Below are positions 19,670 through 24,762 of a DNA stretch of 24,762 nt, piece after piece. The position numbers and the translations under genes are program-made. Location: positions 1-24,762 of IMG/VR virus record IMGVR_UViG_3300025853_009734. One strand, written 5' to 3'. How positions within the stretch are numbered: the first letter of the stretch is position 1; every line of letters starts with the position of its first letter. The notes below the pieces were generated by a model that searched no databases, was not told the DNA's origin, and was given only the letters and a program-made list of their open reading frames with translations. The DNA is from a virus.

Positions 19670-19866
19670 ATAATTCAGAACTACGCGAAGAACTCGCCAC
19701 GATTCGCAATTTGCTGAATGAGGTTCTAGTCAATCAGGACATTCTGGCAAAGCGAATCAATGCTGACACCGCAATCAAAGCGGTTCAGACAGAGCGAGCG
19801 GTTGAGTTGGAAAGATTAAGAAGAACGGCAGACAGAGCAACTCGCAGAACAGCGACTGTTGACTGA
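19666..19866 (+). CDS. Small helical early protein
   Basis: 66 residues overlapping the previous gene by 4 nt. It is a predicted coiled coil (ELREELATIRNLLNEVLVNQDILAKRINADTAIKAVQTE) with a basic C-terminus (RLRRTADRATRRTATVD). Many temperate phages carry a protein like this right after cro, with unknown function. The Arg-rich end could bind nucleic acid. Its stop lies at the base of an extended hairpin structure (19864-19936), so translation end and RNA structure may be connected. No family recognised. Confidence 0.5.
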   Translation: MNNSELREELATIRNLLNEVLVNQDILAKRINADTAIKAVQTERAVELERLRRTADRATRRTATVD

Positions 19867-20022
19867 GCCATAGTTATTTCAACTCATTGACCGAGTTGGA
19901 CGGTTTGGGAGAACCGGCTGGAGCGGCTATGGCTCATTGAGCAGTCTACATGGGGAAAACAAACGTTGTTTTAGTCATAGGTCAGAGGGGTCTTTCCTAG
20001 CAGCCTGAGCAACGTTTCCCCA
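19864..20022 (+). ncRNA. Structured RNA candidate in the early operon
   Basis: The 177-nt gap between two genes folds in two parts. Part A (19864-19936, 73 nt) is closed by a perfect 10-bp stem, TGAGCCATAG/CTATGGCTCA, and holds two inner hairpins: CAACTC-7 nt-GAGTTG (19880-19898) and CGGTT-6 nt-AACCG (19901-19916). This is a three-way-junction-like shape with the size of a tRNA, but without tRNA landmarks. Part B (19951-20022) has TGGGGAA and ACGTTG facing CAACGT and TTCCCCA, a 13-bp stem with a 5-nt bulge, around a smaller TAGG/CCTA hairpin. It may be a small RNA, an antitermination or processing signal. No T run follows either stem. Confidence 0.4.
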
Positions 20023-20043
20023 CCAAAAACATGGAGTTCAAGC

Positions 20044-20208
20044 ATGACAAGCACACCAACCATTCAGGCTTACTTCTTCAGAGCCGAATCAAAGAACAAA
20101 TCCAGAATCATAAATCACCACACCGCACCAGCCTGGAAGAAGCTTTGGTGGCGAATTCGTCTGTATTTCATAAACCGGAAATATGCACGAAGGCTTAGAA
20201 AGATTTGA
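20044..20208 (+). CDS. 54-residue basic protein
   Basis: Opens at ATG 20044 with GGAG 7 nt upstream and runs 54 codons into the next gene (26-nt overlap). Charged and aromatic: residues 31-54 are WKKLWWRIRLYFINRKYARRLRKI, an amphipathic Arg/Trp-rich end that could bind nucleic acid or a membrane, while residues 1-30 are polar. No recognised family. The ribosome site and overlap support translation, but its short length leaves room for doubt. Confidence 0.45.
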   Translation: MTSTPTIQAYFFRAESKNKSRIINHHTAPAWKKLWWRIRLYFINRKYARRLRKI

Positions 20209-20455
20209 AGCCTTTAAGGAGGAAACCAGAAGGATTGAACGGCACTATTGGGCAAGTGTTCGGAGGGCAGAAGCAGACTCCAAGGCGTTGCGTGAATCGT
20301 ATACGCCAGTTTTCCAATGTCCAGTTTGCGGTTTGTTCAGGCCGGAAGGACATAGCCAAAAGTGCAAAGACTTAAAGCCTTCAGACATATCTAAAGAAGA
20401 AAAGTTTCAGCGAATGGATGACCCACACAATGAATCAACTTTTAATTACGAATGA
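20183..20455 (+). CDS. Small zinc-ribbon early protein
   Basis: 90 residues with GGAAA upstream. The first 40 are a charged helix (GLERFEAFKEETRRIERHYWASVRRAEADSKAL), followed by a possible metal site CPVCGLFRPEGHSQKC (two Cys, then His and Cys) and an acidic end. Possible Zn ligands are the CxxC pair plus His/Cys. Proteins of this sort are common in phage early regions as regulators of transcription or DNA binding. The overlap with the preceding small gene implies co-translation. The exact role is unknown; it is one of three Cys-rich proteins in this early region. Confidence 0.55.
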   Translation: MHEGLERFEAFKEETRRIERHYWASVRRAEADSKALRESYTPVFQCPVCGLFRPEGHSQKCKDLKPSDISKEEKFQRMDDPHNESTFNYE

Positions 20456-20461
20456 GGAGGC

Positions 20462-20833
20462 ATGCCAAGACCAAGAAGAAAAGATTTAGCTTTATCAGAA
20501 AGCGCTAAACGACTTGATTCAGTCATATTTGCTAGCGGTCTGTCAATCGCTCAGTTTGCGGAAAGGATTGGGATGACTCCCAGCGGTTTCGGAGGTGTTT
20601 TTTTGAGAGGTGCAGAAGTCTCTGGCCTACAGGCAAGAGCTGTAGAACTAGAGTTTGGGGTATCTTATCGTTGGATTCTGACGGGTGAAGGCAGTTGTGC
20701 CAATTTAGAAAAACCGAAGCAAGTCTTCCAAATCGTTGAAGATATTAAAAAAATTAAAACACAGATTCAAAAGACAATAGAAGCACAGAATGAATTACAA
20801 CAAAAATTAAAGGCTCTAGGAATTGACGATTAG
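20462..20833 (+). CDS. XRE-family HTH regulator with coiled-coil tail
   Basis: 123 residues with an excellent ribosome site (GAGGAGG before ATG, 2-7 nt). Residues ~17-78 (KRLDSVIFASGLSIAQFAERIGMTPSGFGGVFLRGAEVS, YRWILTGEG) are a helix-turn-helix of the XRE/phage type, ending in the typical 'vs..WlLtGeG'. The remaining 45 residues are a coiled coil (FQIVEDIKKIKTQIQKTIEAQNELQQKLKAL). This is the same plan as the 18829 repressor: HTH plus coiled coil, no peptidase. It might be a second repressor, an activator of early or late genes, or an antirepressor that forms mixed dimers. The stop overlaps the start of the next gene by 11 nt. Confidence 0.75.
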   Translation: MPRPRRKDLALSESAKRLDSVIFASGLSIAQFAERIGMTPSGFGGVFLRGAEVSGLQARAVELEFGVSYRWILTGEGSCANLEKPKQVFQIVEDIKKIKTQIQKTIEAQNELQQKLKALGIDD

Positions 20834-21782
20834 AACCTGCACCAATTGTGGCCTGAAGTTTTTGACCGAAGGCGAGGAAAGAACTTGCGGACAGATTTGT
20901 TTTGACGAGTTAAAGGCGAACCACACCAAGCCTCAGTGTGTGATTTGTGGCAAGAAATTTAATCGCAAGTCCAGCAGCCACAAGACTTGTTCGCACAAAT
21001 GCGGTTATGAGCTGAAGAAGCAAAACGCTGCACGTTATCGCGACAAGGTGCGACCAGCGAAGCAAAAGATTGCCTGTGAACGTTGCAGCAAAATCTTTAT
21101 GCCAACTCGCAAGGATCAGCGGTTTTGTGGATCTAGGTGCTACAACCAGCACTATAAAAGAACGGTAACGGTTGAGCCAAGGCCATGTGTCGAGTGTGGC
21201 GAGGTGTTCCAGCCTAGGACTGAGCGCAACATTCTATGCAGTCAGCAATGCCGTTATATCAACGATAAGCGCAGAGCCTACGTCAGAGGCACGATTCCCA
21301 GAATGCCTGGGACTTTGAAACCCAAGAATTGTCTAGTCTGCAAAAAGGAATTTCAACCAAAAGCAGGTTCTCAAAAATACTGTTCACCAACCTGCAACGG
21401 ACTTGTCCACCTTAAGAGAAATCGCTCAAGGCTAGACCACAATCGACTTCTTAAATGCTGGATTTGTTCAAAGCAATTCAAGCCAGTGACCAGTAAGTCG
21501 AGAGCAAAGTTTTGTTCTGCTGAATGCCGCGCAGTCCACTTTGGAAATAAGGCGGCTGAGAAAAGAGAAGAGCTAGAGATTGAGGCCAAGAAGCAAGTTG
21601 AGGTCAAAGAAAAGTGGAACAACGCTTCAGTCACCTCAACCGAAGTTCCGGCTGACTCAATGTTTCCAGAAGAGATTCTGGCGTTTATTAATCGTGGTGG
21701 ACAAATAACCCAATACCTTAACCCAGTCTGGGTGGAAGGCTCGCAGCCTTCAGAATATGAGGATGATTTTATAACAGATTAA
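20823..21782 (+). CDS. Protein with six Cys4 zinc-ribbon units
   Basis: 319 residues from TTG 20823 (overlapping the previous stop by 11 nt). It contains six repeats of C-x2-C-x(12-15)-C-x3-C, with Cys at 6/9/22/26, 39/42/56/60, 85/88/102/106, 122/125/139/143, 170/173/187/191 and 212/215/231/235. Units follow 'C..CgK.F.p.....kyCs..C' and are joined by basic linkers (KKQNAARYRDK, NDKRRAYVR, LKRNRSR). The same motif usually occurs singly in phage HNH-type and DNA-binding proteins. No nuclease motif is present here; the end (residues ~250-319) is acidic. Multivalent DNA or RNA binding is likely. Six units in one phage protein is unusual. It may organise replication or the switch. Confidence 0.75.
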   Translation: MTIRTCTNCGLKFLTEGEERTCGQICFDELKANHTKPQCVICGKKFNRKSSSHKTCSHKCGYELKKQNAARYRDKVRPAKQKIACERCSKIFMPTRKDQRFCGSRCYNQHYKRTVTVEPRPCVECGEVFQPRTERNILCSQQCRYINDKRRAYVRGTIPRMPGTLKPKNCLVCKKEFQPKAGSQKYCSPTCNGLVHLKRNRSRLDHNRLLKCWICSKQFKPVTSKSRAKFCSAECRAVHFGNKAAEKREELEIEAKKQVEVKEKWNNASVTSTEVPADSMFPEEILAFINRGGQITQYLNPVWVEGSQPSEYEDDFITD

Positions 21783-21797
21783 GCCTTCTAGTTATCC

Positions 21798-21832
21798 GGT
21801 TTTGCCCATCCTCCCTAAAAAAACGGGCAACC
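21798..21832 (+). promoter_or_regulatory. Hairpin in the gap before the methyltransferase
   Basis: The 129-nt gap 21783-21911 contains GGTT-TT-GCCC (21798-21807) facing GGGCAACC (21825-21832), an 8-bp stem with a 2-nt bulge and a 17-nt loop including an A run. There is no T run after it, so a terminator is unlikely; it may be a transcript stabiliser or processing site. I see no gene in this gap. Confidence 0.3.
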
Positions 21833-21911
21833 ATTCATGTGCCGGAGTAAGCGATAAAGCTTTTCTCAACTCAAGCTCAAGCTGGCTGGAAGGCGCAAAT
21901 TAAAGAGAAGA

Positions 21912-22844
21912 ATGCAACTCGTTAAACTGGACGAAGCTAAGAGAGCTTTAGCAGAAGCTTCGACACTGCAAGAAATCAAAGACATACGAGATAAAGCGGA
22001 AGCAATCCGGCAATATGTAAAGGTTGCTGGATATCATCTTGGATATCAAAATCAAGCCGCAGAAACCAAGCTTCGAGCCGAGCGTAAGGCTGGTGAGTTA
22101 CTGAAGCAAATGGAGAAGAATAAAGGAGGCAAACCTAGTGAAAAGAACCGTGGACATGATGTCCATGGTATTCCAAGCCTGAAAGACTTAGGCATTCACC
22201 ACAAACAATCTCAACGTTGGCAACAGATTGCTGACTTACCGGAAGAATCTTTTGAAAATAAAATCGAAGAAGTAAAACAAAAGTATGAAGAATTAACACA
22301 ATCAATCTTTCTACAATTATCGAAAAGCTTACGCGCTCATGTTGCCAATAACTCTGGAGACAATGAATGGTACACTCCAGAAATTTACATCAACGCAGCA
22401 AGAGAGACACTAGGCACAATCGATCTAGACCCAGCATCCAATCCAACAGCAAATGAAATTGTAAAAGCAAAGACCTTTTACACAGCAGAAGACAGTGGAT
22501 TAGAGAAAGAATGGGTTGGCAATGTCTGGATGAATCCACCTTATGAAAGTCGACTTATCGGCTCTTTTATAGATAAGCTGCTGGTTCATTATGTAAAAGA
22601 GCAAATCCCACAAGCGATTGTTTTGGTGAACAATGCCACTGAAACGCAATGGTTTCAACTAATCGCTGAAGCCGCCAGAGCTTCCTGCTTCCCTAAAGGA
22701 AGAGTTAAGTTTTGGCATCCAAGAAAAGAAGCAGTTCCACTACAAGGCCAATCGATTCTTTATTTAGGACAAAACAAAGAAAGATTTATTCAGAATTTTC
22801 ACCAGTTTGGTGTTTGTTGGGAGGTTCCGCTTGGGATGGTCTAA
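21912..22844 (+). CDS. dam: Phage-type DNA N6-adenine methyltransferase with N-terminal extension
   Basis: 310 residues with AGAGAAG upstream. Residues ~150-300 are the phage Dam domain (PF05869 type): NEWYTP (151-156), DLDPAS (171-176), TAEDSGLEKEW, and VWMNPPYE, whose NPPY at 208-211 is the catalytic D/NPPY of N6-adenine methyltransferases. It methylates adenine in the phage or host DNA, perhaps to avoid restriction or to regulate genes. Residues ~1-140 are an extra part (IKDIRDKAEAIRQYVKVAG, KLRAERKAGELLKQMEKNKGG, then LKDLGIHHKQSQRWQQIADLP), helical and often found in phage and plasmid proteins with a ParB-like or DUF3102-like flavour, probably for DNA binding. The SAM-binding end is C-terminal as in the family. 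Confidence 0.85.
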   Translation: MQLVKLDEAKRALAEASTLQEIKDIRDKAEAIRQYVKVAGYHLGYQNQAAETKLRAERKAGELLKQMEKNKGGKPSEKNRGHDVHGIPSLKDLGIHHKQSQRWQQIADLPEESFENKIEEVKQKYEELTQSIFLQLSKSLRAHVANNSGDNEWYTPEIYINAARETLGTIDLDPASNPTANEIVKAKTFYTAEDSGLEKEWVGNVWMNPPYESRLIGSFIDKLLVHYVKEQIPQAIVLVNNATETQWFQLIAEAARASCFPKGRVKFWHPRKEAVPLQGQSILYLGQNKERFIQNFHQFGVCWEVPLGMV

Positions 22845-23337
22845 CGGCAGAATTATGGTCGAAGAGGCATATGCTCAAGGCAAAATGATTGACCATAGTT
22901 CCTGGGTGTTAGACAGAGGTTGCAATTTCTGTGATGTCGATATGCTGCTTGATTCAAAAGGCTGTTGTTTTTGGTGTTTTTTAGAGAGGACAAAGAATCG
23001 AAAAACCTTATCCAAAGGCCAAAGAATAGTTTTTAAAACTCTATCAAATTTAAATGGCTATCACATTGCGGCAGTCCTTCGCCATTCAGTTGATGTTAAA
23101 GAAAGAATTAATTCAAGATTTGATATTAAAGAAGCCGAGGTTTGGTTTGACCGAGGCCAAAGGCAAGTGCTTTTGAACAACGAGCAATATCAAAGATTGG
23201 TTTGCGCTTGGGCGAAGAACCCATACAAGGCGCTAAACCGATTGAGACTAAACTTTAACCAAAATGGGAGGAACCATTCGAAAAACAAAAAAGTTATTCA
23301 AATGAAACACAATCAATTTGAAATGCCATTAATCTAA
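22831..23337 (+). CDS. Cys-rich early protein
   Basis: 168 residues from TTG 22831, which has GGGAGG 6 nt upstream and overlaps the methyltransferase end by 14 nt; ATG 22855 in the same frame is an alternative. Near residue 30 it has RGCNFCDVDMLLDSKGCCFWCF, two CxxC pairs spaced by 12 residues, a likely Zn site. The rest is helical and basic (KNRKTLSKGQRIVFKTL, then YKALNRLRLNFNQNGRNHSKNKK), with a polar end. It lies between the methyltransferase and the annealing protein. No family recognised; a DNA- or RNA-binding role is inferred from the Zn site and charge. It starts within the methyltransferase gene, so translation is likely coupled. Confidence 0.6.
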   Translation: MGWSNGRIMVEEAYAQGKMIDHSSWVLDRGCNFCDVDMLLDSKGCCFWCFLERTKNRKTLSKGQRIVFKTLSNLNGYHIAAVLRHSVDVKERINSRFDIKEAEVWFDRGQRQVLLNNEQYQRLVCAWAKNPYKALNRLRLNFNQNGRNHSKNKKVIQMKHNQFEMPLI

Positions 23338-24097: not shown

Positions 24098-24762
24098 ATG
24101 ATAGGCAAACGCATTGACGGACCTTACACTGTTATCGGTAACGCAGCCGCTCAGGACGCAGAACTTAGCTGGAAAGCCAAAGGCTTGCTGATTTACCTGC
24201 TCAGTCTGCCGAAGAACTGGAACATCCGAATCAGTGAGTTAGCCAATCATGCGACAGATGGCTATGACTCAACAAAGCGAGCAATGGATGAACTGCTGAA
24301 GTCTGGCTACATCAAGCGTGGTCCGAGAGTTCGCAAGCCGGATGGCAAGCTTGGGGATTATGTTTATCTGCTCTCAGGTGTTCGTGACGAAATGCCTAAC
24401 CTAGAAAAACCTAACGTGGATTTTCCTAGTCAGGGAAAACCTAGTCAGGGAAAACCTAGTCAGGAAAATCGCCAGCTACAAAATAAAGAATTAACAAAAG
24501 AAACAAATAACAAAAGAAACACTGAATATATTACGCACTTTGAAGGCTGGTGGGACGATTGGAAAGCAAAGGCAACCAGAAAGCCAGGACGCAAAGCCAA
24601 AGCCTTTGAGAACTTCAAGAAGCTGCTGGCAAAGTTCAGCGTTGCTGAAATTCAAATCGCAACCAAGCACTACCTCGCAGAATGTGGCGACAGCTACACC
24701 AAGGACGCTGAACGGTTCTTAGTCGAAGACTTGATTGAACAACACCAGGAACCAAGCCGAGC
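24098..24762 (+). CDS. Replication initiator, winged-helix type (3' end outside window)
   Basis: Opens at ATG 24098 (AAGAGG upstream) and runs with no stop to the right edge, at least 221 residues. The N-terminal ~75 (IGKRIDGPYTVIGNAAAQD, LSWKAKGLLIYLLSLPKNW, ISELANHATDGYDSTKRAMDELLKSGYIKRG) is a winged helix-turn-helix of the type that opens phage replication initiators (lambda O / replisome organiser-like). Residues ~100-124 are a PNLEK-PNVDF-PSQGK repeat, encoded by 15-bp tandem units (see repeat entry). Then comes a Lys/Asn-rich linker and a helical domain (FEGWWDDWKAKATRK, AEIQIATKHYLAECG). Placing the origin inside the initiator gene is the lambda O plan. The C-terminus, likely for the helicase loader, is missing. 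Confidence 0.75.
   Translation, partial: MIGKRIDGPYTVIGNAAAQDAELSWKAKGLLIYLLSLPKNWNIRISELANHATDGYDSTKRAMDELLKSGYIKRGPRVRKPDGKLGDYVYLLSGVRDEMPNLEKPNVDFPSQGKPSQGKPSQENRQLQNKELTKETNNKRNTEYITHFEGWWDDWKAKATRKPGRKAKAFENFKKLLAKFSVAEIQIATKHYLAECGDSYTKDAERFLVEDLIEQHQEPSR
24395..24469 (+). repeat. Five tandem 15-bp iterons, likely replication origin
   Basis: Five units of 15 bp follow each other without gap: 24395, 24410, 24425, 24440 and 24455. Three are nearly identical (CCTAGTCAGGGAAAA, twice exact, then ending GGAAAAT), and the first two are diverged (CCTAACCTAGAAAAA, CCTAACGTGGATTTT). With the preceding bases each good unit forms a dyad, TTTTCC-6 nt-GGGAAAA, as in lambda's iterons. An A-rich, low-G/C stretch (24480-24535) follows, as expected for a strand-opening element. 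In lambda O the origin also lies in the middle of the gene. That this is an origin is an inference. Confidence 0.65.

Follow-up and report, generated by a model that had tools for sequence, protein, structure and literature searches.

The DNA analysed here, which we call the window, covers an IMG/VR fragment of 24,762 bases. It comes from a temperate tailed phage whose genes include a tape measure, an integrase, a repressor-like HTH gene, Dam and Bet. On its plus strand, positions 20823–21782 form an open frame for a protein of 319 amino acids that starts with TTG and has 35 relatives. By pattern count, all 24 cysteines of this protein fall within six non-overlapping C-x2-C-x(9-20)-C-x3-C units. 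Unit 1 covers residues 6–26 (20838–20900), unit 2 residues 39–60 (20937–21002), unit 3 residues 85–106 (21075–21140), unit 4 residues 122–143 (21186–21251), unit 5 residues 170–191 (21330–21395) and unit 6 residues 212–235 (21456–21527), all on the plus strand. When the residues of the protein were shuffled 20,000 times, 18,432 shuffles (92%) contained no unit, and the best reached only three units, once. Hence, six units are beyond chance, and the array over residues 6–235 that the original prediction described is confirmed.

Other parts of that prediction held to different degrees. The units were said to be evenly spaced, which is only roughly true: the distances from one unit start to the next are 33, 46, 37, 48 and 42 residues. 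Linkers 2 to 5 are basic as proposed (net charge +2 to +7), but linker 1 is neutral. The end is indeed acidic, with a net charge of −9 over the last 51 residues (269–319), and residues 1–235 carry +36. The absence of a nuclease domain also stands, since a Pfam search of the array protein returned neither HNH nor any other nuclease.

The TTG start overlaps the stop codon of the upstream gene. This overlap is conserved among relatives, and several of them have a GGAG about 7 nt 5' of the start; together these support the start codon. Pairwise identity between the six units is 18–35%, so the duplication is old. We rejected a recent duplication of neighbouring units in the DNA itself, because apart from this low identity the gene contains only two short two-copy repeat families.

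A structured RNA element of about 180 nt (19858–20042, plus strand) lies 5' of the operon; the original prediction did not mention it. The first gene after it, F0 (20044–20208, plus strand), falls below the length of the open reading frame list and encodes a basic, Trp/Arg-rich protein of 54 amino acids. In relatives F0 is also basic and has 54–60 residues, with a piN/piS of 0.26 (48 codons, 23 sequences), which indicates purifying selection. F3 (20183–20455, plus strand), a protein of 90 amino acids with a CCHC knuckle (C-x2-C-x7-H-x3-C), is a constant neighbour of the array and was found in 27 loci, every one of them within the array group. The gene between F3 and the array, which encodes a Cro/CI-type HTH protein (20462–20833, plus strand), occurs in the window only and is a family of one; its stop overlaps the array start, so the overlap is kept here as well.

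In relatives, the order on the 5' side is F16 (a MerR/excisionase-type HTH protein), F8, RNA, F0, F3 and array, sometimes with an extra gene between F8 and the RNA, for example a C5 methyltransferase (named by eye). After the array follow a variable cassette, Bet, an O-like initiator, RusA and a dCTP deaminase. The array thus closes a fixed block of RNA, F0, F3 and array, and the surrounding genes turn over. The cassette after the array (21912–23337, at the same place in relatives) is exchanged, and DNA methyltransferases of various families are frequent in it. Right after bet, on the plus strand, lie three tandem 15-nt repeats, CCTAGTCAGGGAAAA (24425–24469), which are possible origin iterons and sit where relatives encode the O-like initiator. 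A promoter scan found 6 candidates, not above the 6.7 expected from shuffles, and a terminator scan found 10 against 6.6 expected.

Maintenance of the array and its tail

A scan of viral contigs yielded the 35 relatives of the array. Six units are present in 31 of them and five in two (L033, L035/L048), which lack unit 1 and have the same start codon; the remaining two (L031, L036) are fragments cut by a contig end. Units are therefore not lost freely, so this refuting outcome named in the original prediction is not seen. From 30 full-length array sequences taken, 24 distinct ones formed the set for measuring constraint. Across these 24 sequences all 24 cysteines are invariant, and piN/piS is 0.18 overall and between 0.10 and 0.28 in every unit and linker. 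Values are higher in two short segments (0.52 for residues 1–5 and 0.32 for residues 269–282).

The region behind the last ribbon (residues 236–319; 21528–21779, plus strand) consists of a helix followed by a flexible acidic end, and it stands where distant relatives carry a nuclease. Invariant or near-invariant residues are spread along this whole tail, and piN/piS for residues 283–316 is 0.108. The flexible tail is thus under as much constraint as the ribbons. Invariant cysteines and low piN/piS together mean that the array family is maintained, tail included.

Recombination in the array gene is intense: r2 is 0.29 between sites less than 30 nt apart and about 0.06 beyond 100 nt (21 sequences). 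A search for the host found none. No relative of the array in genome contigs was confirmed, where 41 stretches matched a pattern. The integrase gave one 29% match in a Mucilaginibacter bin, and a profile search with the array had no hit there. Known phages gave no match to the array at E 1e-5 and only weak partial matches up to E 10; the tail alone had no match among phages, and the DNA of positions 19800–21900 had none among phages and plasmids. At the level of titles and abstracts, the open-licence PMC literature held no description of the array or the RNA. Since all known examples of the module come from a single recombining phage group, common ancestry may account in part for its constant synteny.

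A structured RNA at the head of the block

The RNA first became apparent as compensatory changes in an alignment of the regions upstream of the arrays. Its predicted fold, a three-helix branched domain and a long interrupted hairpin, has 51 pairs and is based on 27 distinct sequences. In these, 99.3% of cells pair compared with 93.8% in shuffles. Ten pairs show changes on both sides, and such cells number 76 compared with 28.5 in shuffles. Sliding the partners against each other cuts pairing to 32–49%. One of five measures, further pair types, was not above shuffles. Common descent cannot account for the covariation: the eight partner pairs variable enough to be tested in the 27 sequences have a mean r2 of 0.845, compared with a mean of 0.16 and a median of 0.04 for 430 non-partner site pairs 10–90 nt apart. 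Among 1362 paired cells, 156 are G-U and 2 are A-C, which shows that the transcript is the plus strand. The folding energy z-score is −3.98 on the plus strand and −2.49 on the minus strand.

Rfam gave no match at the gathering thresholds over the window and none at E up to 1 for positions 19830–20200. By this search the RNA is previously uncatalogued; its fold is strongly supported by covariation. When 54 sources were searched with a covariance model, 32 of them gave a strong match, each a single one. Second copies, as in nutL/nutR-like pairs, were not seen; there is one RNA per record save for mirror matches of 14.7–23.6 bits on the other strand.

Of the 36 arrays, 30 have the RNA upstream, among them all 27 with at least 600 nt of upstream sequence; the distance is 561–601 nt in relatives and 965 nt in the window. 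Conversely, 27 of the 32 contigs found by the RNA pattern also carry the array, and the other five end before or at its start. Of 30 contigs with an exact 16-mer of the RNA, two (L136, L152) are chance matches that lack the RNA. We also looked for coevolution between RNA and array. The linkage between their variants (r2) is at baseline, so co-adaptation was not seen.

Tandem ribbons in distant proteins

Profile searches place the array near several zinc-binding families and within none of them. Pfam returned only sub-threshold zinc-domain matches (NinG, YacG, MYM/FCS), and no HNH family, PF01844 included, matched the array protein at E up to 1. The NinG cut-off (PF05766) was narrowly missed at 25.1 against 25.4 bits, with the best stretch covering profile positions 4–37 of 193. 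The YacG cut-offs were missed more widely (17.4 against 25.5 bits for PF03884 and 18.5 against 83 bits for NF001638), and unit 6 is the weak YacG match (E 0.0036 in Pfam, 0.0013 in NCBIfam). In PHROG, the array matches HNH families and families of unknown function in their zinc-ribbon parts; the match to PHROG 1271 is partial (profile positions 173–247 of 361, at residues 163–248). A sequence search of solved structures with the array protein gave no match at E up to 1.

An AlphaFold model built with 13 relatives (mean pLDDT 66.5, below 50 for residues 291–319) predicts a hairpin and a helix for each unit; units 4–6 modelled alone reach 76.2. In fold, the modelled units come closest to YacG on gyrase (4tma_I), but weakly, with a Z of only 4.0 (45 residues aligned at an rmsd of 3.3); an FCS finger matches weakly at Z 2.8. 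The VIA-align fold list covers mainly the first modelled unit. Matches among viral models are WhiB, HNH and other multi-ribbon proteins. With a hairpin, a Cys pair and a helix, the modelled units are candidates for YacG/TRASH-type treble clefs (YacG, FCS, MYND, L24e), in which a zinc-knuckle hairpin is followed by a second Cys pair at a helix start. According to PMC4999995, YacG belongs to the TRASH family and is related to FCS. YacG differs in being a single unit that inhibits gyrase, as opposed to the six units here. A CTCF-like array was considered and set aside: C2H2 proteins top the Foldseek list for the full model, but at TM scores of 0.08–0.10 and rmsd values mostly of 24–35 Å the likeness is that of beads on a string only.

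The original prediction called a six-fold tandem array on its own unusual, which, as regards tandem arrays as such, our survey does not support: arrays of 2–9 units are common in phages and mobile elements, mostly with a nuclease and sometimes without. Starting from scans and weak tblastn hits, we picked 22 distant unit-bearing proteins of phages, plasmids and viral contigs for translation; they have 2–9 units by regex count. We searched 20 of them (all but L125 and L129) with Pfam. Half of the 20 pass an HNH-family cut-off (L050, L051, L054, L057, L058, L121, L124, L126, L127, L131). One is TnsA-like above the cut-off (L059), and in another, gp65 of Mycobacterium phage Che8 (L123, 1213–1860), WhiB passes the cut-off and is fused to three such units. 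The remaining eight (L049, L052, L053, L055, L056, L122, L128, L130) show no effector domain above the cut-off; in L128 the MTES_1575 and DUF559 matches are both below it. Behind the nine-unit array of L130 (477–2315) follows a tail that by eye resembles a nuclease but matches none in Pfam. The homology among such short units is probable rather than certain.

The same Cys4 unit occurs in tandem, in 4–6 copies, at the N-terminus of phage HNH endonucleases of the PHROG 1271 type, such as gp136 of Mycobacterium phage Gaia, the protein of viral contig L058 and a Paenibacillus plasmid protein (WP_274336786.1). Gaia and others were recovered by tblastn, hmmscan and fold searches with the array. These proteins end in an HNH domain above the Pfam cut-off, and the window's array protein has none; L058, with six units and HNH, has the same layout with the nuclease retained. 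An enzyme in the tail of homologues, the other refuting outcome named in the original prediction, is thus found in distant relatives but not in the close family. Nuclease-free proteins with 2–4 units and no Pfam effector above the cut-off come from uncultured gut phages (L049, L052, L053), a Paracoccus plasmid (L055), a Natrinema plasmid (L056) and phage Cormatin (L122). An HTH gene lies near several of them (by eye), and they are not close homologues of the window's array.

Two array-HNH frames are nested in terminase inteins, each in another reading frame. One lies in the terminase gene of Gordonia phage Clown (L124, 480–3239) and the other in that of Synechococcus phage S-EIVl (L172, 1585–4125), where the HNH part was seen by eye only. 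Such hidden, out-of-frame HNH homing elements bearing zinc fingers have already been described (PMC11855218). This nesting suits a DNA-targeting role for the array. Since distant arrays front HNH, TnsA-like and WhiB domains, and some belong to intein-nested homing endonucleases, the array may be a portable targeting front end.

Possible roles of the array

From the array, its constraint, the fixed block and the covarying RNA, all of which can be read from sequence comparison, we infer zinc binding, nucleic-acid binding, regulation and polymerase contact. The best reading of the array, which we hold tentatively and at somewhat less than even chances, is that it belongs to the tandem zinc-ribbon arrays of phages (TRASH/YacG/FCS-type treble clefs), has been kept by selection without a nuclease, and acts as a multivalent nucleic-acid-binding regulator of the early operon. 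The six ribbons and basic linkers would grip nucleic acid, either early-region DNA or the structured leader RNA of their own transcript. The conserved flexible tail, in place of the nuclease of relatives, would recruit a partner, for which host RNA polymerase is a candidate. The array would work jointly with F3, F0 and the structured RNA as a constant block. Of the functions first proposed, that of a nucleic-acid binder is kept as the most plausible.

The polymerase candidate comes from a weak likeness between the tail and SutA of Pseudomonas aeruginosa. The motif FPEEILAFINRGGQITQY (residues 281–298; 21663–21716, plus strand) gives a SutA-RBD-like match below the Pfam cut-off. SutA-RBD is the Pfam family that matches the tails of most members (11/13, best E 0.027), but at 13.3 bits for the window's tail and at most 15.2 bits these matches miss the cut-off of 29.3 (PF20661). 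The SutA model is also matched weakly, below the cut-off, in 8 of 14 control genomes, and plainly spurious families score alike on the same tail. A search of solved structures with the tail profile gave three ribosomal-protein matches only (E 0.56–0.98), which we take as chance. SutA is not known to carry zinc ribbons.

The interface description of SutA in PMC9300723 names L67, M71, F74, L75, G78, G79, V81, I84, K60 and R64 at the polymerase. One fixed offset puts the eight hydrophobic and glycine contacts on F281, I285, F288, I289, G292, G293, I295 and Y298 of the tail, so that 8/8 are matched in kind, including the spacing of the Gly-Gly pair. Of the polar contacts 0/2 are matched: K60 and R64 align to E274 and D278. 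This eight-position pattern, which was chosen after seeing the match, occurs once outside the array family in 1.1 million residues of the loci searched. The SutA likeness is thus a lead.

Antitermination by lambda N/nut depends on a phage protein that binds a hairpin of the early leader RNA and modifies RNA polymerase. Lambda nut-N and the putRNA of HK022 are possible analogues of our locus, where a structured RNA in a phage early transcript likewise precedes genes for small basic proteins and for proteins that may bind nucleic acid. RNA, F0, F3 and array could then make up a phage system for antitermination or leader control that is new in kind, with the SutA-like tail holding RNA polymerase, although we consider this specific version unlikely. 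The early transcript would fold into the RNA of about 180 nt, F0, F3 and the six-ribbon array would bind it, and the array's tail would hold the RNA-bound proteins to host RNA polymerase. Such a system would be a zinc-ribbon counterpart of lambda N/nut, built from the domesticated targeting array of a homing endonuclease. In the comparison with lambda the predicted leader RNA is present, but the variants of RNA and array do not co-vary. The put element is described in PMC9378689 as about 70 nt long, with two stem-loops and two copies per genome near early promoters. By that description the RNA here, of about 180 nt and one copy per record, is not a put element.

Other explanations have to be weighed against an early-operon regulator. 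The array could be the DNA-targeting subunit of a two-part enzyme encoded elsewhere, for example with the methyltransferases that follow it, for self-protection against restriction. Methyltransferase-like genes are often found downstream (Dam in the window, the F31 family and others in relatives), and distant arrays are fused to nucleases; yet the gene directly after the array varies among relatives and RNA, F0 and F3 are constant, so we give this explanation a low probability. That the ribbons bind a host protein (gyrase, as YacG does) or act as a restriction decoy, in host takeover or counter-defence, is doubtful to a similar extent or slightly more: the weak match of unit 6 to YacG and the gyrase-bound YacG as top fold match speak for it, but the YacG scores fall short of both cut-offs, relatives carry the same unit ahead of DNA enzymes, and the array is strongly basic.

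That the array organises replication or recombination by coating or bending the DNA around Bet, the O-like initiator and RusA agrees with its place in the operon of these genes. Against it speak the variable cassette between array and Bet and the constant partners, which are the RNA and the two small proteins; we think it improbable. Decoy and replication organiser, both part of the original prediction, are not borne out; what the conserved neighbourhood suggests is control of early genes. Least plausible is decay, with the array as the remnant of a homing endonuclease whose HNH part is gone. The closest architectures do carry HNH (the six-unit L058 protein and the Paenibacillus plasmid protein), but purifying selection, seen in the low overall piN/piS, the invariant cysteines and the conserved tail, largely refutes decay, as does the presence of the array on every RNA-bearing contig that extends past its start. 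With array and tail locked to a leader RNA and two small proteins in the early operon, a regulator fits better than decay, decoy activity or a part in replication.

If the array is indeed such a regulator, then a selfish nuclease can lose its cutter and have its targeting half retained as a regulator. A strongly supported structured RNA without an Rfam match is added to phage early operons. Together with two small proteins and the array, this RNA makes a compact block that is experimentally tractable. The array itself may also be of use as a naturally occurring multi-finger reader of nucleic acids with a bacterial origin.
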